The translations under genes and the position numbers were made by a program. 33,549 nucleotides of DNA from Reyranella massiliensis 521 (GTDB lineage Bacteria > Pseudomonadota > Alphaproteobacteria > Reyranellales > Reyranellaceae): contig CAMAYC010000047.1 in assembly GCA_945862125.1 (NCBI GenBank), positions 1 to 33,549 of the forward strand. The letters run 5' to 3'. The notes below the pieces were generated by a model. The model did no database searches. It saw only the letters and a program-made list of their open reading frames with translations, and had not been told where the DNA came from. Shown here one piece after another: positions 1 through 18,248 of this stretch. Position 1 is the first letter of the stretch, and every line of letters begins with the position of its first letter.

Positions 1-654
1 CTTGGGAAGCGAAATGGCCGCCTCTTCCCGGAAGGGGCCGGCGGCCGTCCGACGCAGCGCGGACAGGTGTCCGACGGTGCCCAGGGCCACCGCCAGGTCA
101 CGTCCCAGGGACCGGATGTAGGTGCCCTTGCCACAGGTCACCACTAAATATGCATGGTCCCTGTCAGGCCGGGCCAGAAGCGCCAGACCGTCGATACGAA
201 CACGGCGTGGCTTCATCTCGACCGTCTCGCCCGCCCGCGCGAGATCGTAGGCCCGCTGGCCGTCGATTTTGAGCGCGGAATAGGCCGGCGGCACCTGCTC
301 GATATCGCCCAGGAATCCGCCCAGGGCGCCGCGAATCGCATCATCCGTCGGCCGCGCATCGCTCGTGGCCGTTACGTCACCTTCCGCATCCTCCGTCGAA
401 CGGGCCTCACCGAACCGGAGGGTGAAACGATATTCCTTGCGGCCATCCATCACGAACGGGACCGTCTTGGTCGCTTCGCCCAGGGCGATCGGCAGCACGC
501 CGCTGGCCAGCGGATCCAGAGTGCCGCCGTGCCCTGCCTTCTGGGCGCCGAACAGGCGGCGCACCCGGCTGACGGCCGGCGTCGAGCCCAGCCCCACCGG
601 CTTGTCGAGCACGACCCAGCCGTCGATCTTGTCGCCCTTCTTCCTGCGCGCCAT
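1..654 (-). CDS. truB: tRNA pseudouridine(55) synthase TruB (3'-truncated by window edge)
   Basis: TruB isomerises U55 in the T-loop of tRNAs to pseudouridine. The first 218 codons are present and the C-terminal part, usually about 80 more residues, lies beyond base 1. The start is ATG at 654, giving [19 protein letters not shown]. The family motif [19 protein letters not shown] contains the expected catalytic Asp at residue 47. A second motif, [19 protein letters not shown], and the later [14 protein letters not shown] are also typical of TruB. It is the last member of the minus-strand rimP-nusA-infB-rbfA block but is separated from rbfA by a plus-strand gene, so it cannot simply be read through. 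Its start is 62 bases from the divergent start of that gene. No clear Shine-Dalgarno sequence precedes the ATG. Confidence 0.95.
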
Positions 655-716
655 GGACGCGCTTGTAGGCAGACAAATCGTTGGGCGCCAGCCACCGCTT
701 CAGGCAGGCTGCAGAT

Positions 717-2936
717 ATGACCTCGGCGCTTCAGTCGGACCGCATCCGGCAATACGTCCTTTTCGGACTGTTCTTCCTCTCGGGCGCCGCCGCCCTGATC
801 TACCAGACAGCCTGGCATCGCCTGCTCGGCCTCTTCGCCGGCGCCGACACGATCGCCGCCGCCCTCGTGGTGGGCGCGTTCCTCCTCGGTCTCGGCATCG
901 GCAGCCTGGCCGCCGGCCTCTATGCCGACCGGCTGTCGCGGCGGGCGTCGCTGATCGCTTTCGCCATTTGCGAAGTGGGCATCGCCGTCTTCGCGGTGCT
1001 GAGCCCCTGGCTCTACTACGACGTCATCTATCGCGAGTTCCTGCCGCTGGCCGCCTCGCGCGGCGTCATCTTCGCCGTGGTCTTCGCCGGCCTCCTGTGG
1101 CCGACCTTCCTCATGGGCTGCTCGCTGCCGTTCCTGTCGAAGGCGGTGGTGAGCCAGATCGCGGGCTCCGCCAAGCTGATCGGCTGGCTCTACGGCCTCA
1201 ATACGCTGGGCGCCGGTATCGGCGCCTTCATCGGCGGCTGGTACCTGATCGGCACTTTCGGTTTCGACAAGGCGATCTATGTCGGTGCGACGCTCAACCT
1301 GGTCGTCGCGCTGGGCGGCCTGCTGCTGGCGCGCGGCCTCGACATGGCGGATGCCGCGCCAAAGACCAAAGCCGCGTCGCTGCCGGACCCGGTCGACGGC
1401 GTCGTGTGGCGCTGGTCGTTGCTGGTGTTCATCAGCGGCTTTCTCATCGTGGCGCTGCAGATCGTCTGGTACCGGCTGATCGGCGTCCTGCTGCAATCCA
1501 ACGGTTACAGCTTCTCGCTGGTCCTTTCCGTCTTCCTTCTGGGCGACGCCGCGGGCCTCATGGTGGGCGCGCGGATGATCGACCGCATCGCCGATCCGCG
1601 GCGGTTCTTCTTCCTGATGCAGGGCGTGGCCACGACGCTGGCGCTGTGCGGCGCCTGGTTCGTCTATCTCGCCATCGGCGCCGGTATCCTGCCTTCCGAC
1701 TTCGTCGACGATGACGTCATGGGCGGCGGCGAAAAGAATATCCTTCTGATCATTCTGTTGCTGTTGGTGGTGGTGCTGCCCGCCTCCTTCATCATGGGCT
1801 TCTCCTTCCCCGTGGTGCAGAAGGCGGTGCAGCGCGACCTCGACCGGCTGGGCAGCCGTGTCGGCCTGGTGCAGCTCGCCAATATCATCGGCAACAGCAT
1901 GGGCAGCCTGGTCGCCGGTCTCGTGCTGCTCGATCTCGTGGGCACGGCCGGCACGCTGAAACTGCTGGTGGCGATCGGGCTCGCCTTTGCGGTGATGCAA
2001 CTCTTCGGCGCGCGCTCGACGCGCTGGGCCTGGCTGCCGGCGGCGCTGCTGACGGCGGGCCTGGCGTTGTTTCCCGGCGGCGAAGCGTTCTGGCGGCGGC
2101 TTCATGGCCTGACCGTCGAGAAGGCCATCGTCGCCGAGGACAAGACCGGCCTCAGCCTGCTGAAACTGGAGACGCCGCAGGACGGCAAGCTCTACATCCA
2201 GGGCCACTCCCAGAGCCGCCTGCCCTTCTACACCGTTCACACTTTCCTCGGTGCCATCGGGCCGCTGGTGCACGAGGCGCCGAAGCGCGTCCTGGTCATC
2301 GGCTCCGGCACCGGCGGCACGCCCTATGCGGCCGGCCTCAATCCGGTCACGGAGCGCGTGCGGGTGATCGAGATCGTGGCGCCGGTGATCGCCACCTTGC
2401 GCGACTATGTCGGCCAGGGCGGCAAGTCAGGCGTCGAGAGCCTTCTTGCCAGCCGGAAGTTCGAGATCGTCGTCGCCGACGGCCGCCACGCGCTCGCCCT
2501 CGATCCGACGCGCTACGACGTGATCGAGGCCGACGCCATCCTACCCAAGACCGCGCTGTCCGGCCTGCTCAACTCGCAGGAATTCTTCCGGCAGGTAAAG
2601 GCGAAGCTGGCGCCCGGCGGTCTCTATGTTCAATGGGCGCCGACGGCGCGCTCGATCGAGACGTTCCGGTCGGTCTTCCCCTACGTGACGATGGTGCACC
2701 CGGCGATGATCGGCAGCGACCGGCCGATCCCCTATGCGCGGGACAAGATCCTGGAATTGCTGGCACGGCCCGAGATCGACCGGCATCTGGCGGCGGCGCG
2801 TGTCGACCGCGGCGACCTCAGGAAATGGTTCGAGGACAAGAAGGTCGAGGTGCTGAACGACGGCAAGGTGGTGCCGGCGGCTTCGCCCAACACCGACTTC
2901 TTCCCGCGCGACGAATACTACCTCAATCGTCCTTGA
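717..2936 (+). CDS. Fused membrane protein / spermidine-synthase-like protein
   Basis: This 739-residue protein has about 450 residues of hydrophobic, MFS-like or SpeE-associated membrane segments, followed by a soluble Rossmann domain like spermidine synthase. The nucleotide-binding loop near residue 530 reads VLVIGSGTGGTPY rather than the usual GGGDGG. The later YDVIEADAILP corresponds to the aminopropyltransferase acidic motif, so the family is clear but the substrate is not. I chose ATG at 717; a TTG 12 codons upstream is possible but less likely. The gene lies on the plus strand between rbfA and truB, interrupting an otherwise co-directional operon. Its last 14 bases overlap the end of rbfA tail to tail. 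Polyamine synthesis should not be assumed because the substrate-binding residues are altered. Confidence 0.85.
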   Translation: MTSALQSDRIRQYVLFGLFFLSGAAALIYQTAWHRLLGLFAGADTIAAALVVGAFLLGLGIGSLAAGLYADRLSRRASLIAFAICEVGIAVFAVLSPWLYYDVIYREFLPLAASRGVIFAVVFAGLLWPTFLMGCSLPFLSKAVVSQIAGSAKLIGWLYGLNTLGAGIGAFIGGWYLIGTFGFDKAIYVGATLNLVVALGGLLLARGLDMADAAPKTKAASLPDPVDGVVWRWSLLVFISGFLIVALQIVWYRLIGVLLQSNGYSFSLVLSVFLLGDAAGLMVGARMIDRIADPRRFFFLMQGVATTLALCGAWFVYLAIGAGILPSDFVDDDVMGGGEKNILLIILLLLVVVLPASFIMGFSFPVVQKAVQRDLDRLGSRVGLVQLANIIGNSMGSLVAGLVLLDLVGTAGTLKLLVAIGLAFAVMQLFGARSTRWAWLPAALLTAGLALFPGGEAFWRRLHGLTVEKAIVAEDKTGLSLLKLETPQDGKLYIQGHSQSRLPFYTVHTFLGAIGPLVHEAPKRVLVIGSGTGGTPYAAGLNPVTERVRVIEIVAPVIATLRDYVGQGGKSGVESLLASRKFEIVVADGRHALALDPTRYDVIEADAILPKTALSGLLNSQEFFRQVKAKLAPGGLYVQWAPTARSIETFRSVFPYVTMVHPAMIGSDRPIPYARDKILELLARPEIDRHLAAARVDRGDLRKWFEDKKVEVLNDGKVVPAASPNTDFFPRDEYYLNRP

Positions 2937-12784: not shown

Positions 12785-13261
12785 ATGAGCGCTTCGGTCC
12801 CCTCCGATAGCTCGACCATCGATACGGCGTTTCTCGTCGGTCCCGAATTGGTCGAGTTCGATCGCCACGACCTTCCCATCTATGCCTCTCTTGAATCGCG
12901 CTGGGCAGATGCCGGCCTCGACTCTCCGTCCTATGGCGCGTCGCTCGACCGGCTATTCGGTGAGCCCGGCGCCATCTTCGTGAGCGGCCCGATCGGCGCC
13001 GAGGAACAGGCTGCCGCCCTCGCGGCGACGACGTTGCCGTCCGAGGATCCGATGGTCGTCCTGGCCGGTCTTTCCGATGGGCTGATCCTGCCCGCCGCCG
13101 AAGCCGGTGACGCGCTCGCCCTGCCGTCGGGCGCCCAGCAGGCCCCGGAGATCGTGACGATCTTCGATGTCGGCATCGACGCCTTCGCCGTGGTGCATCT
13201 GCATGGCGGCAGCCTCTGGGACTCCTCCAGCGACGCCTGGGCCTTCGACTACACGACCTGA
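12785..13261 (+). CDS. Hypothetical acidic protein, 158 aa
   Basis: I do not recognise this family. The protein is acidic, Ala/Gly/Ser-rich and soluble in appearance, with no signal peptide, membrane segment or cysteine cluster. Its second half alternates short hydrophobic strands with loops (MVVLAGLSDGLILPAA and VTIFDVGIDAFAVVHLHGG), suggesting an alpha/beta fold. The ATG at 12785 follows an AT-rich region with a possible -10 element but only a weak ribosome-binding site (GAAAGA). It is a monocistronic gene or paired with the next small ORF 89 bases downstream. Coding character looks real, because base composition at codon third positions is strongly G/C. Confidence 0.65.
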   Translation: MSASVPSDSSTIDTAFLVGPELVEFDRHDLPIYASLESRWADAGLDSPSYGASLDRLFGEPGAIFVSGPIGAEEQAAALAATTLPSEDPMVVLAGLSDGLILPAAEAGDALALPSGAQQAPEIVTIFDVGIDAFAVVHLHGGSLWDSSSDAWAFDYTT

Positions 13262-13350
13262 TCCCGTCTCGGCGGGCGCATATCGACGACCGATCAAAAG
13301 ATGTAGGGTGAGGCCCGGTCCACAGTGGGTCGCACAAGCGAGGACTTCGC

Positions 13351-13620
13351 ATGACCTACAGGCTCTGGTGGACCGTCGGCTACGTTTGCACCTCGGAAAA
13401 AGAATTCCTGGCTGCCAAGCACCGCCTGCTGCCCGCGACTTACGAGATGCTGGACGATGCGCTGCGCCGGGCCAACCAGGTCGGCCAGGCCGGCGGTGTC
13501 GCCTGGTTGATCGAAGGCGACGACAAGACCCGCCTCGGCCGCGCCGCCATCGAGCGGACGATCGAGAAGCGCGGCAGCGAACTGGTGGTCCAGCCTGCGA
13601 CCGGCAACGCCGGGCGGTAG
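13351..13620 (+). CDS. Small hypothetical protein, 89 aa
   Basis: This small soluble protein begins MTYRLWWTVGYVCTSEKEF. It has a helix-rich middle (LPATYEMLDDALRRANQVG) and a short strand pair, VAWLIEGDD. The overall pattern resembles small conserved hypothetical proteins of alphaproteobacteria, but I cannot assign a family. A GAGG about eight bases before the ATG supports the start. Its stop is nine bases from the end of the convergent amidohydrolase gene. Confidence 0.6.
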   Translation: MTYRLWWTVGYVCTSEKEFLAAKHRLLPATYEMLDDALRRANQVGQAGGVAWLIEGDDKTRLGRAAIERTIEKRGSELVVQPATGNAGR

Positions 13621-13629
13621 TGGCGGCCA

Positions 13630-14823
13630 CTAGGCCGCGTCGCCCAGCTCGAGCTGGACGAGGTTCATCCAGTAGGCGGCGCCCGTCGTCAGGATCTTGT
13701 CGTTGAAGTCGTAGAGCGGCGAATGCACGTTGTGGCAGCCGCCTTCGATCGTGCCGCCGTTGCCGATCATGATGTAGGCGCCCGGCTTCTTCTCCAGCAT
13801 GAAGGCGAAATCCTCGGCGCCGGCGATCGGCTGCGTGTTGGGCTCGACATTCTCGCGGCCAACCGTGGCCGCCGCGGCTTCGACCGCAATCGACGTCTGC
13901 TCCGCCGCATTGATCAACGCCGGATAGCGACGGTGATACTTGCTCACCGCCTCGCAGCCGCCGGCCTGCGCGATGCCCGCCGCGACCTCGGCCAGGCGGC
14001 GCTCCAGCAGCGACCGCACCGCAGGAGAGAAGCTGCGCGCAGTGCCCTTGATCAGCACTTCCGACGGGATGACGTTGGGCGAGCCCGGCGTGCCGCACGC
14101 GATATGGCCGACGCTCAGGACTGCTGCCTGGTTCGACGGCACGTTGCGGCCGACGATGCCTTGGATCGCCACGATGAATTGCGCCGCGACAAAGGTAGGA
14201 TCGGTGCCGCGATCGGGCATGGCGCCGTGGCCGCCGGTACCCTTGAAAGTGACCTCCCAGCTATCGGACGAGGCGAGCATCGCGCCGGGACGGATGGCGA
14301 AGTGGCCGACCGGAAAGCCCGGCATGTTGTGCATGCCGTAGACGACGTCGCAGGGGAACTTGTCGAACAGGCCTTCCTCGATCATCACCCGCGCGCCACC
14401 CAGCCCCTCTTCGGCGGGCTGGAAGATGAAATGCACCGTACCGGCAAAGTCGGGCGCCGCCGCGAGCTGCTTGGCGGCACCCAGCAGCATCGTGGTGTGA
14501 CCGTCATGGCCGCAGGCATGCATCTTGTTGGGGATCGCCGAGGCGTAGTCGAAGTCGTTCTTCTCCTGCAGGTGCAGCGCGTCCATGTCGGCGCGCAAGC
14601 CGATTGTCTTCTGGCCCGGCCGGCTGCCCTTCAGGGTGCCGACGACGCCGGTCGTGGCCAGCCCACGATGGACCTCGATGCCCCAGGAGGTAAGCTTGTC
14701 GGCCACGATCTGCGAAGTCCGCTCCTCCTCGAACGCTGTCTCGGGATGGCGATGGATGTCGCGACGGATGGCGGTGAGGTCCGCGAGGTCGGCGGCCAGG
14801 AGATCGGGTGTGTATTGGGTCAT
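13630..14823 (-). CDS. M20-family amidohydrolase (hippurate hydrolase-like)
   Basis: This 397-residue zinc-dependent amidohydrolase belongs to peptidase family M20D, whose members hydrolyse N-acyl amino acids and related amides. The sequence contains RRDIHRHPETAFEE at residues 20-34 and GLRADMDALHLQE near 75-87. The metal-binding HACGHDGHTTMLLGAA has Cys104 and His106, and FQPAEEGLGGARVM has the catalytic Glu pair at 138-139. The dimerisation domain includes GTGGHGAMPDRGTDP, and the last metal-ligand region is PIAGAEDFAFML. The start is ATG at 14823. It has no obvious Shine-Dalgarno sequence and lies only 27 bases downstream of a strong minus-strand terminator, so its transcript must begin almost at the start codon or depend on readthrough. 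Confidence 0.9.
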   Translation of the reverse strand: MTQYTPDLLAADLADLTAIRRDIHRHPETAFEEERTSQIVADKLTSWGIEVHRGLATTGVVGTLKGSRPGQKTIGLRADMDALHLQEKNDFDYASAIPNKMHACGHDGHTTMLLGAAKQLAAAPDFAGTVHFIFQPAEEGLGGARVMIEEGLFDKFPCDVVYGMHNMPGFPVGHFAIRPGAMLASSDSWEVTFKGTGGHGAMPDRGTDPTFVAAQFIVAIQGIVGRNVPSNQAAVLSVGHIACGTPGSPNVIPSEVLIKGTARSFSPAVRSLLERRLAEVAAGIAQAGGCEAVSKYHRRYPALINAAEQTSIAVEAAAATVGRENVEPNTQPIAGAEDFAFMLEKKPGAYIMIGNGGTIEGGCHNVHSPLYDFNDKILTTGAAYWMNLVQLELGDAA

Positions 14824-14849
14824 GGCCGAAGACTAGCGTCGGCTGGCGC

Positions 14850-14892
14850 AAAAAGAAAAGAAAACGGCGAAGCCGGTTGCCCGACTTCGCCG
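14850..14892 (-). terminator. Strong intrinsic terminator with GCAA tetraloop
   Basis: On the minus strand bases 14892-14865 form a 12-bp stem, with one U-G pair, closed by a GCAA tetraloop: CGGCGAAGTCGG, GCAA, CCGGCTTCGCCG, with the loop closing bases shared as read. It is followed directly by TTTTCTTTTCTTTTT at 14864-14850. This is a textbook Rho-independent terminator oriented for minus-strand transcription coming from the right. The M20 gene starts downstream of it, so it must terminate some other transcript encoded at 14895-15420. Confidence 0.85.
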
Positions 14893-15290
14893 CTTCATAC
14901 GTCCCGGAAAGTACGCTCGTCACGTTCCTCCGCGGGGCGCGGTCCACCGTGACCCCGGAGGGACCACGAAGGGCTAGTGAAATTGCGAGATCCCCGCTCG
15001 CCGCCACCATCCTCGGGTGCAGGCCGTCCATGCGCATGGACCTCCCACAACGAATCCCCGGCTGCTTTTTCCTGCCAGCGCTCTCCCTCGCGAAGGGCGC
15101 GCATCGTCCCGTCGGACGAGTTCGCAGGGCACTCCGAGAACCCTTCAGCGGCTTTCGCCACCGCGAGGAACCTTTCGGCCCCTCTCCGCGTGATGCGACC
15201 ACCACGCTTCGTTGAGAGAAACCTTCCGCCTCGACGCGCAAGCCCGCAAGCGCGGCTTGATTGGCTTTTCGGTGGATTGGCTGGATAGCG
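14893..15290 (-). ncRNA. Candidate structured RNA of about 400 nt, unrecognised
   Basis: This stretch has no convincing protein gene, although minus-strand frames are open because of the high GC content. It is dense in stable hairpins: CCGCG/CGCGG at 14930-14942, GGTCC/GGACC at 14941-14965, a 16-bp palindrome at 15026-15041, TCGTCC/GGACGA at 15104-15119, and CAAGCC/GGCTTG around 15240-15258. It ends in the strong minus-strand terminator. I tested it by eye for the RNase P core (GAGGAAAGTCC), a tmRNA T-loop or ANDN tag, and SRP RNA, and found none. The 5' end is uncertain. A protein reading ending at 14895 is the main alternative. Confidence 0.35.
15026..15041. repeat. 16-bp perfect palindrome GTCCATGCGCATGGAC
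   Basis: The sequence equals its own reverse complement over 16 bases. As RNA it would fold into a six-bp stem with a GCGC loop. It lies inside the candidate structured RNA. Confidence 0.7.
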
Positions 15291-15328
15291 AGGACTGAAT
15301 CGCGCGGGCCTCAAGGGAATGTGGCGCA

Positions 15329-15344
15329 AGTGCGTCGACGCACT
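15329..15344. repeat. 16-bp perfect palindrome AGTGCGTCGACGCACT
   Basis: This perfect dyad lies 77 bases before the GST start and to the right of the candidate RNA, where a promoter for either would be expected. It could be a repressor operator for either transcript. No second copy is visible in the window. Confidence 0.55.
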
Positions 15345-15420
15345 AAGGCTCGCTGCGCCCGTTGTGCGCACCGTTTGCATCCTGCACAGTCCGATGCTCC
15401 TTCCTCCGTGATGATCGGCC

Positions 15421-16227
15421 ATGACAGAGTCCGCCAAGCTCTCCGGAGCAAAACCCCGCCTCTATCAAACGCCGTCGTCCTACTATTCGATGATCGCGCG
15501 CCTCGCGCTCGCCGAAGGCGGCATCGCCCACGAGCGCGTCTTCGTCGACATCCACTTCCGGCTGAGCCAGCAACAGCCGGACTATGTGCGGATCAATCCG
15601 GGCATGACCGTGCCGACACTGGTGCTGGCCGATCGCATCCTCGATCAGAGTCGTGACATCGCCGAGTATGCGCTCGGCGCGACGCCCGACGGTGAGACGA
15701 AAGCCTGGCTCGACCTTCACTACGGCTATCCGATCGAGGAATTGACCTTCGGCGGGATTCTCGCCCGCAACCCGCTGGCGCGGATCCTGATCCCGAAGCG
15801 GCTCGAGGCGACCCGCCGCCAACTCCTGGCACTTGCCGCCAGAAATCCCGATCTCGCTTCCGTCTATGAGGCGCGCGCCGCGGTCTTCGCCCGGCGCGTC
15901 AGCACCTTCGAGCCGGATGCCGTCGTAAAGCTTTCGGAGCGGCGTCGCACTGAGGCCATCGGCTTCATGGACCGGCTCGAGCAGACTTTGAGCGATGGCC
16001 GCGCAGTGTTGGTACCGCCGGCCTATGGCGTCGCCGATGTCGTCTGGACCGTGTTTCTCGGGCGCATGGAGTTCGCCGGTCTCGGCGCGGAGATCCCCAA
16101 GCGGCCGGCGCTCGCGCGCTACTGGGGCGTCCTGCAGGCGCGTCCCAGTTTTTCCGCGGCCGACATATGGACGAAGTTTCATGTCGGCCGCCTGATCGGC
16201 GGGATTTTGGGCATCGACAGAAGCTGA
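15421..16227 (+). CDS. Glutathione S-transferase family protein
   Basis: This 268-residue protein has a thioredoxin-like N-terminal domain (PRLYQTPSSYYSMIARLALA), with the cis-Pro motif GMTVPTLVLADRILDQSRDI near residues 60-80. The QSR corresponds to the usual glutathione-binding E/D-S position. An all-helical C-terminal domain follows, containing the conserved VADVVWTVFLGRMEF region in place of the usual N-capping box. The catalytic Ser or Tyr is probably within PSSYYS but cannot be assigned. The start is ATG at 15421, with no strong ribosome-binding site. It is longer than a typical GST (about 210-230 residues) because of an extended middle segment. The neighbours give no substrate clue. 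Confidence 0.8.
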   Translation: MTESAKLSGAKPRLYQTPSSYYSMIARLALAEGGIAHERVFVDIHFRLSQQQPDYVRINPGMTVPTLVLADRILDQSRDIAEYALGATPDGETKAWLDLHYGYPIEELTFGGILARNPLARILIPKRLEATRRQLLALAARNPDLASVYEARAAVFARRVSTFEPDAVVKLSERRRTEAIGFMDRLEQTLSDGRAVLVPPAYGVADVVWTVFLGRMEFAGLGAEIPKRPALARYWGVLQARPSFSAADIWTKFHVGRLIGGILGIDRS

Positions 16228-16239
16228 CGGCGTGACGCC

Positions 16240-16647
16240 TTAAGCTGCTCGATCCGTGGCGGTGCAGAAAAGGGCCAGCTTGTTGCCCAACGGATCGCGC
16301 AGGTAACCCACGAAGAAATTCCTGCTGTACTGAGCGCGGAAGCCCGGTGCGCCGTCATCCGTGCCACCAGCCGCCATGCCGGCGCTGTGCAGGGCGTGAA
16401 CCTGGGCATGCGTCGGTACACGAAAGGCGATCATCGAGCCGTTGCCAACCGTCGCGTCCCGCCCATCGTAAGGCTTCCTGACATACACGGCACAGTGACC
16501 GTCGAAGCGATCGGGAATGTCGGGGAGCGTGTAAGCCACTCCGTCTTTCTGCTGTGCCTTTTCATAGCCAAGCGGCCCGAGGACCGCCGTATAGAACCGC
16601 TCTGAGCGCGGGATATCGTTCGCGCCGATCGTCAAATAATTCAGCAT
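16240..16647 (-). CDS. VOC (glyoxalase/bleomycin resistance) family protein
   Basis: This 135-residue vicinal oxygen chelate fold protein begins MLNYLTIGANDIPRSERFY, followed by TAVLGPLGY and ending with FFVGYLRDPLGNKLALFC. The two usual metal ligands appear to be missing: the first strand has Asn-Tyr where many members have His, and DPLGNKLALF lacks the Glu found in DPxGNxxE. It may therefore bind a ligand or act without metal. The start is ATG at 16647, with AGGGG six bases upstream; TTG and GTG codons immediately before it are alternatives. It lies on the minus strand, divergent from hisA and convergent with the GST gene. Confidence 0.82.
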   Translation of the reverse strand: MLNYLTIGANDIPRSERFYTAVLGPLGYEKAQQKDGVAYTLPDIPDRFDGHCAVYVRKPYDGRDATVGNGSMIAFRVPTHAQVHALHSAGMAAGGTDDGAPGFRAQYSRNFFVGYLRDPLGNKLALFCTATDRAA

Positions 16648-16732
16648 CACCAACCCCTATCCCGTGCGTGCCGGTGCGCCCCACTCGAACGGGGTGGCGT
16701 GCCGCCGTCCGGCGCGCTAAACCCCCGCCGCC

Positions 16733-17461
16733 ATGATCCTGTTTCCCGCCATCGATCTCAAGGACGGCAAGTGCGTTCGCCTGCTGCGGGGCGACATGGC
16801 ACGGGCCACGGTGTTCAACGACAGCCCGGCGGCGCAGGCCAAGGCATTCGCCCAGGCCGGCTGCGAATGGCTGCATCTCGTCGACCTCAACGGCGCCGTC
16901 GAGGGCCATCCGGTGAACCGCGCCGCGGTCGTCGAGATCCTGAAGGAGATCGATGTGCCGGCGCAGCTCGGCGGCGGCATTCGCACCATCGAAAGCATTT
17001 CCCAGTGGTTCGATGCCGGCGTGAGCCGCGTCATCCTGGGCACGGTCGCGGTCAAGGAGCCGGGCCTGGTGAAGGCCGCCTGCAAGCAGTGGCCGGGCAA
17101 GGTGGCGGTCGGCATCGACGCCCGCGAGGGCATGGTTGCGGTCGATGGCTGGACCAAGCAGAGCACGGTGCGCGCGCTGGACCTTGCGCTGCGCTTCGAG
17201 GACGCCGGCGTCGCCGCCATCATCTATACCGACATCGATCGCGACGGCGCCATGGGCGGCGTCAATGTCGACGCCACAGTGACGCTGGCCCAGCATCTCA
17301 CCACGCCGGTGATCGCCTCGGGCGGCGTTAGCTCGCTCGACGATCTGCGCGAGCTGCGGCCGGCCGAGGAGCATGGCATCATCGGCGCCATCGTCGGCCG
17401 CGCGCTTTATGACGGCCGCGTGACGGTGCCCGACGCCATCCGCGTCCTCAAAGGCGAATGA
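16733..17461 (+). CDS. hisA: ProFAR isomerase HisA (histidine biosynthesis)
   Basis: HisA isomerises the aminoaldose ProFAR to the aminoketose PRFAR, the fourth step of histidine synthesis, using a (beta/alpha)8 barrel. The 242-residue protein has catalytic Asp8 in [14 protein letters not shown] and Asp129 in GIDAREGMV. Its phosphate-binding motifs are QLGGGIRT near residue 78 and VIASGGVSS in the second half. Length is normal. The start is ATG at 16733 with no clear Shine-Dalgarno sequence. hisF follows after ten bases on the same strand. Unlike many alphaproteobacterial loci, hisH is not immediately upstream; a divergent VOC gene is there instead. Confidence 0.97.
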
Positions 17462-17474
17462 GGTAGGGCGAGTG

Positions 17475-18248
17475 ATGCTGAAGGTCCGCATCATCCCCTG
17501 TCTCGACGTCAAGGATGGCCGCGTCGTGAAGGGCGTGCAGTTCGAGTCCCTGCGCGATGCCGGCGATCCCGTCGAGCAGGCCCGCATCTACGACGCCGCC
17601 GGCGCCGACGAGCTCACCTTCCTCGACATCACGGCCAGCCACGAGAACCGCGACACCATCCTCGATGTCGTCGCCCGCACGGCGGAACAGTGCTTCATGC
17701 CGCTTACCGTGGGCGGTGGTGTGCGGACCATCGAGGACATCCGCCGCCTGCTGCTGGCCGGCGCCGACAAGGTCGGGATCAACTCCGCCGCCGTGACGCG
17801 GCCGGAGTTCGTCAAGGAAGCCGCCGAGAAGTACGGCGACCAGTGCATCGTGGTGTCGATCGACTCCCGGCAGACCGCGCCCGGCAAATGGGAGGTCTTC
17901 ACTCATGGCGGGCGCAAGGGCACGGGCCTCGACACGCTGGACTGGGCGCGTCGGATGGCACGGTCGGGCGCGGGCGAGCTGCTGATCACCTCGATGGACC
18001 GCGACGGCACCAAGTCGGGTTTCGACCTGGAACTCACCCGTGCGGTCTCCGATGCCGTGCCGGTGCCGGTGGTGGCCTCGGGCGGCGTGGGCACGCTCGA
18101 CGACCTGCTCGACGGCGTCACCAAGGGCGGCGCCTCGGCGGTGCTGGCCGCCTCGATCTTCCATTTCGGCGAGTTCACCATCGCCCAGGCGAAAGAACAT
18201 CTCGCCCGCGCCGGCGTTCCGGTACGACAAATCTCGCGCGCGGCGTGA
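17475..18248 (+). CDS. hisF: Imidazole glycerol phosphate synthase subunit HisF
   Basis: HisF is the cyclase subunit that, with ammonia from HisH, converts PRFAR into imidazole glycerol phosphate and AICAR. The 257-residue barrel has catalytic Asp11 in [15 protein letters not shown] and Asp130 in VVSIDSRQ. Its phosphate-binding loops are LTVGGGVRT and VVASGGVGT, and it has the family signature [14 protein letters not shown] chose ATG at 17475, with AGGTAGGG upstream; the adjoining GTG three bases earlier is a possible alternative. It is flanked by hisA and hisE on the same strand. The HisH partner must be encoded outside the window. Confidence 0.97.

Follow-up and report, generated by a model that had tools for sequence, protein, structure and literature searches.

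The window analysed here is a stretch of Reyranella DNA of 33,549 nucleotides. Between an M20-family amidohydrolase gene (Pfam Peptidase_M20; 13630 to 14823, minus strand) and a divergent glutathione S-transferase-like gene (GST; 15421 to 16227, plus strand) lies a segment of about 430 nt (14851 to 15280, minus strand), which we interpret, from comparison with its homologues, as a stand-alone structured non-coding RNA gene with its own intrinsic terminator, with a probability of roughly 0.8. Both protein genes are outside the RNA unit, the amidohydrolase being downstream of its terminator, and the 5′ end of the unit is uncertain by some tens of bases. Two small genes at 12785-13261 and 13351-13620 (both plus strand) have no Pfam match, and their relatives are found near the amidohydrolase in other genomes of the genus.

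Terminator and limits of the RNA unit

The original prediction had placed a minus-strand terminator upstream of the amidohydrolase start, and this was confirmed. The terminator (14851 to 14896, minus strand) is made of a stem, helix 20 (14896-14861), with a 12-bp core including one U-G pair, a GNRA loop (GCAA here), and then CTTTTCTTTTT, the U tract ending at 14851. Twenty-seven bases separate this end from the amidohydrolase start at 14823. Among the 5 terminator-like sites detected in 13300-17500 (mean of 2.3 when this region is shuffled), it is by far the longest, with 16 counted pairs versus 5 to 6.

To delimit the unit, pairwise identities to four close relatives (G018, G019, G021 and G023) were used. 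The unit itself is 93-94% identical, the 52 bases adjoining its 5′ side (15334-15283) 71-79%, the spacer beyond those bases 80-88%, and the 26 bases 3′ of the terminator 73-88%. Because identity drops in the adjoining 52 bases, the 5′ end of the RNA was placed near 15282. Third codon positions are 73-84% identical in the amidohydrolase and 86-92% in the GST gene (66 positions); the latter are nearly as conserved as the RNA unit, which is a point against. A transcript had been expected from 14895-15400: a conserved unit is present, but it spans approximately 15280 to 14851 and falls short of 15400. A weaker conserved block exists upstream of the 5′ end. At 15309-15324 (minus strand), this block, CCACATTCCCTTGAGG, has an inverted repeat CCAC...GTGG in several carriers of the RNA, which suggests a hairpin or a protein site. 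As a promoter, it fits no clear consensus, and the one sigma-70-like site detected in 13300-17500 does not lie upstream of the RNA.

Carriers of the RNA and their gene neighbourhoods

A DNA search of the window's own genome found a single copy of the RNA. When extended to 61 genomes (this one and 60 relatives), it gave some match in 14, nine of which, the window's own included, hold the RNA itself. In four of the remaining five, the match is confined to the spacer at the terminator and the amidohydrolase start, with a further match on the GST side in two, and the fifth is an apparent chance match inside a gene. Covariance models were built from the first nine carriers. Model R1 detected the RNA in 17 of 65 genus genomes, with E of 2.9e-17 or better, and model R2 added G085, which brings the total to 18 Reyranella genomes. 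No R2 score lies between 95 and 22 bits, and R2 misses G084, where the RNA is cut by a contig end. R1 also yielded 14 further rows (E from 0.0028 to 0.87): one is G085, real according to R2, one lies antisense to the RNA of a carrier, and at the other 12, R2 run over the same 65 genomes gave nothing at E 0.1. The covariance models thus found no copy in 47 of the 65 genus genomes, and therefore this is no housekeeping RNA. With model R3, 28 of these 47 genomes were retested, together with two outside genomes, G250 (same family, another genus) and G037 (same order, another family). Three weak matches were obtained, two due to a single perfect hairpin with A after it and the third due to helix 6 (helix numbers refer to the common fold described below); they were not accepted as homologues. 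The perfect hairpin, GAGGGGCCGAAAGGCCCCTC, is identical in two RNA-less genomes (L183 1501-1658, L185 1501-1628 (-)) and resembles helix 5; it might represent a terminator seen from the opposite strand.

A 19-base motif was found in 39 stretches of assembled genome contigs. Fourteen of them scored strongly with both R1 and R2, and L149 with R2 only; L132 matches only at its end, to the 5′ 50 positions of R2, and the other motif stretches stayed at or below 19.4 bits (R2). The RNA is thereby present in assembled records whose titles name Asaia bogorensis (L136 and L149) and, for the 5′ 50 positions only, Rhizobium sp. Q54 (L132); the titles of L136 and L149 look wrong, because their positions agree with the genus genomes G083 and G085. 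The G085 version (L149, ~650-1060, minus strand) is shorter, with a terminator-like hairpin directly after the part with helices 15-16. Helices 17 and 19, not seen there, may therefore be optional.

No convincing homologue was found outside Reyranella, in 385 genomes of the class or in phage and plasmid collections. The class search with R3, which included the window's own genome and a few genus members, gave three weak matches besides the own genome; only 7 first-look candidates were scored per listed genome, so that remote relatives could be missed. The best outside match (G292, 32.9 bits) is without helix 5 and looks coding by eye. A phage or plasmid origin was considered, and neither collection gave a match; two viral contigs with the 19-base motif reached at most 18.5 bits with R2.

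In 13 of the 18 carriers, the RNA points at the adjoining amidohydrolase; in one of these, G083, the 463-base spacer holds a 105-aa ORF on the other strand. The amidohydrolase does not follow directly in G005, G010, G024, G066 and G085. Transporter-like genes are interposed in G005 and G024, and other genes in G010 (kinds judged by eye); the 6.6-kb contig of G066 has neither hisA nor the amidohydrolase, and the G085 RNA runs into an opposite-strand gene, transporter-like by eye, at that gene's 3′ end. On its other side, the RNA has hisA as its immediate divergent neighbour in 5 carriers (G005, G024, G032, G077, G083) and adjoins the GST gene in 8 (G000, the window's own genome, G018, G019, G021, G023, G075, G079, G081); contig ends interrupt the locus in G010, G082 and G084, and the arrangement is different in G066 and G085.

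Among 17 RNA-less genus genomes checked, 15 keep the amidohydrolase at at least 82% identity (in pieces in G009). On an amidohydrolase tree of 33 of the 65 genomes, comprising 16 of the 18 carriers (all except G066 and G085), RNA presence needs 5 changes, 2 of them forced by well-supported branches, versus 11.3 with shuffled labels. We read this history as mostly vertical descent with losses, regains being possible. In G008, G029, G031 and G035, which group with the carrier G010 (support 94/84), the spacer resembles the terminator and amidohydrolase start (74-82% over 55-62 bases), and this remnant looks like a scar of RNA loss. In L010-L013, where the RNA is absent, the spacer before the amidohydrolase has a hairpin resembling the RNA's terminator, a probable deletion scar.

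The common fold and its support

Sixteen of the 18 carriers were aligned (alignment A4), leaving aside G084, cut by its contig end, and G085, short and divergent. The RNAalifold consensus on A4 has 123 pairs. In this fold, 97.4% of 1949 cells are paired, versus 40-51% when the fold is slid along the alignment, and 29 of the 123 pairs and 77 cells are changed on both sides, against a maximum of 50.7% paired and 8 such pairs for slid versions. None of 500 shuffles reached the paired share, the both-side pairs, the both-side cells or the covariation score, and 14 of 500 reached the number of further pair types. A tree-based simulation keeping per-column change counts (200 runs) attained at most 91.6% paired and 20 both-side pairs. 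These figures are flattering, because the fold was counted on the very alignment that had served to derive it. The tree-aware test of single column pairs found none with E < 0.05, nor even E < 1; two pairs under E 5 lie outside the fold, and 4 of the top 100 are inside, for 0.13 expected. The fold as a whole exceeds shuffles and tree simulations; no single pair is significant.

With respect to strand, the fold contains 342 G-U cells versus 19 C-A, and reading the other strand lowers the pairs to 80.8% and shifts the consensus energy from -147.0 to -83.6. These comparisons indicate that the minus strand is the correct strand of the RNA. Folding energy was unremarkable: without the terminator, the minimum free energy was -175.8, versus -167.6 (sd 6.2) for 100 shuffles (z -1.3). 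Only 40 pairs are common to the minimum-energy folds of the window (151 pairs) and of G024 (157 pairs), and of 302 changed cells in four divergent copies, only 145 keep their pair in the window's own fold. The dense hairpins that had drawn attention to the region thus do not on their own exceed chance. It is conservation and maintained pairing, not folding energy, that carry the case.

Support is good for helices 4-6, 11, 14-17, 19 and 20, and helices 1-3 are provisional. The hairpins of helix 5 (15165-15184, minus strand, as for all helices below) and helix 6 (CGGTGGCGAAAGCCGCTG, 15146-15163) both end in a GNRA loop in 16 of 16 sequences, GAAA, GCAA, GTAA, GAGA or GGAA in helix 5; in helix 6, 6 of 7 pairs never vary. 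The letters of the GNRA loops vary while their class is kept, including in the terminator (15 of 16), whose helix 20 has 3 of 16 pairs changed on both sides and all cells paired in the 16-sequence alignment. The branched domain of helices 8-11 (15056-15139) is provisional except for helix 11, where 3 of 8 pairs are changed on both sides. The 16-bp palindrome noticed at the outset is present at 15026-15041 and corresponds to helix 14. Its GCGC loop is found in 16 of 16 sequences; stem changes are compensated in G077, and by eye GCGC is also kept in G085 with a changed stem. In helices 15-16 (14972-15012), 2 of 13 pairs are changed on both sides, both in helix 16, and the corresponding numbers are 3 of 9 for helix 17 (14948-14968) and 4 of 8 for helix 19 (14908-14930). 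A conserved 5′ segment (15269-15280, minus strand), AATCCACCGA here and AATCCACCGG in most sequences, shows complementarity to CGGTGG, the 5′ arm of helix 6. In divergent copies about 5 pairs seem possible by eye, and this pairing is a possible switch.

Known RNA families and possible roles

The window gave no Rfam 15 match at gathering score, 6S RNA and SRP RNA being among the families tried, and it holds no tRNA or tmRNA (ARAGORN was used for tmRNA). In 14700-15500, the only Rfam matches had E of 4.9 and 9.2, both outside the RNA. Seven homologue loci gave seven matches far below gathering scores, one of which (E 4.6, ctRNA family) falls on the RNA's terminator in L095. RNase P RNA (RF00010) resembles the present RNA in its size near 400 nt, and the two-piece alphaproteobacterial tmRNA (RF01849) in size and taxon, but each has a separate locus in the same genome, at G000:C13:31794-32189 (302.8 bits) and G000:C14:14361-14701 (255 bits), respectively. 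RNase P RNA was found elsewhere in all 9 genus genomes tested, and the alpha tmRNA in 6 of 6, own genome included. The RNA is thus not RNase P RNA or tmRNA, and it gave no SRP RNA match at gathering score, in line with the lack of their features noted at the outset. OLE, ROOL and GOLLD, whose models the Rfam 15 library presumably includes, gave no covariance-model match over gathering score in the window. In common with these large ornate RNAs, the Reyranella RNA would be stand-alone, several hundred nucleotides long, and rich in conserved helices. PMC12286853 describes a kissing loop in OLE RNA that is symmetric and contains a palindromic tetranucleotide, and ROOL and GOLLD as larger and encoded by phages and prophages. 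The GCGC loop of helix 14 could be like the OLE kissing loop, a resemblance and not a membership; as compared to ROOL and GOLLD, the Reyranella RNA is smaller and has no match in phage or plasmid collections. No earlier description of it was found in the small part of the literature on Reyranella, and on noncoding RNA in the genus, that was covered.

Several other explanations of the locus have to be weighed. The original prediction allowed for an odd small protein gene, which would leave codon-type substitutions in homologues. Long stop-free frames do occur in single sequences, and the prediction was right that the stretch has no recognisable protein, its 180-aa ORF being without Pfam match. 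In 14 relatives (the partial G010 left out), however, changes relative to the window fall evenly on the three phases (265/297/291), single-base indels occur even between relatives at 91-95% identity, and no frame is open throughout in all 16 sequences. Because of the missing codon rhythm and the single-base indels, we conclude that this is no protein gene, and a dual-function RNA that includes a short ORF is just as improbable, this being the least credible of the readings. A decaying, non-functional remnant of an RNA or mobile element would agree with the patchy presence (5 changes on the 33-genome tree), but is very unlikely given the maintained pairing and the 93-94% identity of the unit, versus 71-88% for its flanks and 73-84% for third codon positions of the amidohydrolase.

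The orientation towards the amidohydrolase in 13 of 18 carriers, with a spacer of 463 bases in G083, raises the possibility of a cis-acting leader (riboswitch or attenuator), in which the terminator, unless opened by a signal, would end transcription ahead of the start codon. Being upstream of the same gene in only those 13, the RNA was not assigned to this class. As the amidohydrolase does not follow directly in the other 5, it would not be an amidohydrolase leader; moreover, all 16 sequences keep the terminator stem paired, and 15 of 17 RNA-less genomes still keep the amidohydrolase. We consider a leader improbable, albeit less so than a remnant. A more serious competitor, although still a doubtful one, is an antisense-type small RNA pairing with mRNAs via conserved segments (5′ AATCCACCGG, and CTCACGAAG) that are mostly unpaired in the consensus. 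The intrinsic terminator with its U tract is in keeping with such a role, but the length and the many maintained hairpins probably exceed the needs of a pairing RNA.

The minus-strand RNA initially envisaged, conserved, structured and about 400 nt long, is thus supported by homologues, maintained pairing, GNRA loops and the lack of a coding signal. It would be transcribed from its own promoter, and action in trans as a folded RNA fits best; cells could presumably do without it. As to its mode of action, we tentatively put first a compact RNA that binds either itself or a protein; in this view the GCGC loop of helix 14, invariant and self-complementary, is a candidate dimerisation contact. Base pairing with target mRNAs ranks as the next likeliest mode. 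Slightly less probable still is a new genus-bound large RNA class, in which the GCGC loop would mediate a dimer or higher complex and the GNRA-capped hairpins would give rigidity to an RNA-only or RNA-protein machine. The invariant loop hints at homo-oligomer formation as in OLE, ROOL and GOLLD, and is the only sign of it seen.

From these sequence comparisons, we propose that the locus encodes a real, new lineage-bound family of structured RNA, so far in part of Reyranella only. According to PMC12286853, bacteria have few large structured RNAs, several of them without an assigned function. Owing to its patchy presence in one genus, the RNA offers natural pairs of carriers and non-carriers, and its role should be accessible by deletion in cultured Reyranella.
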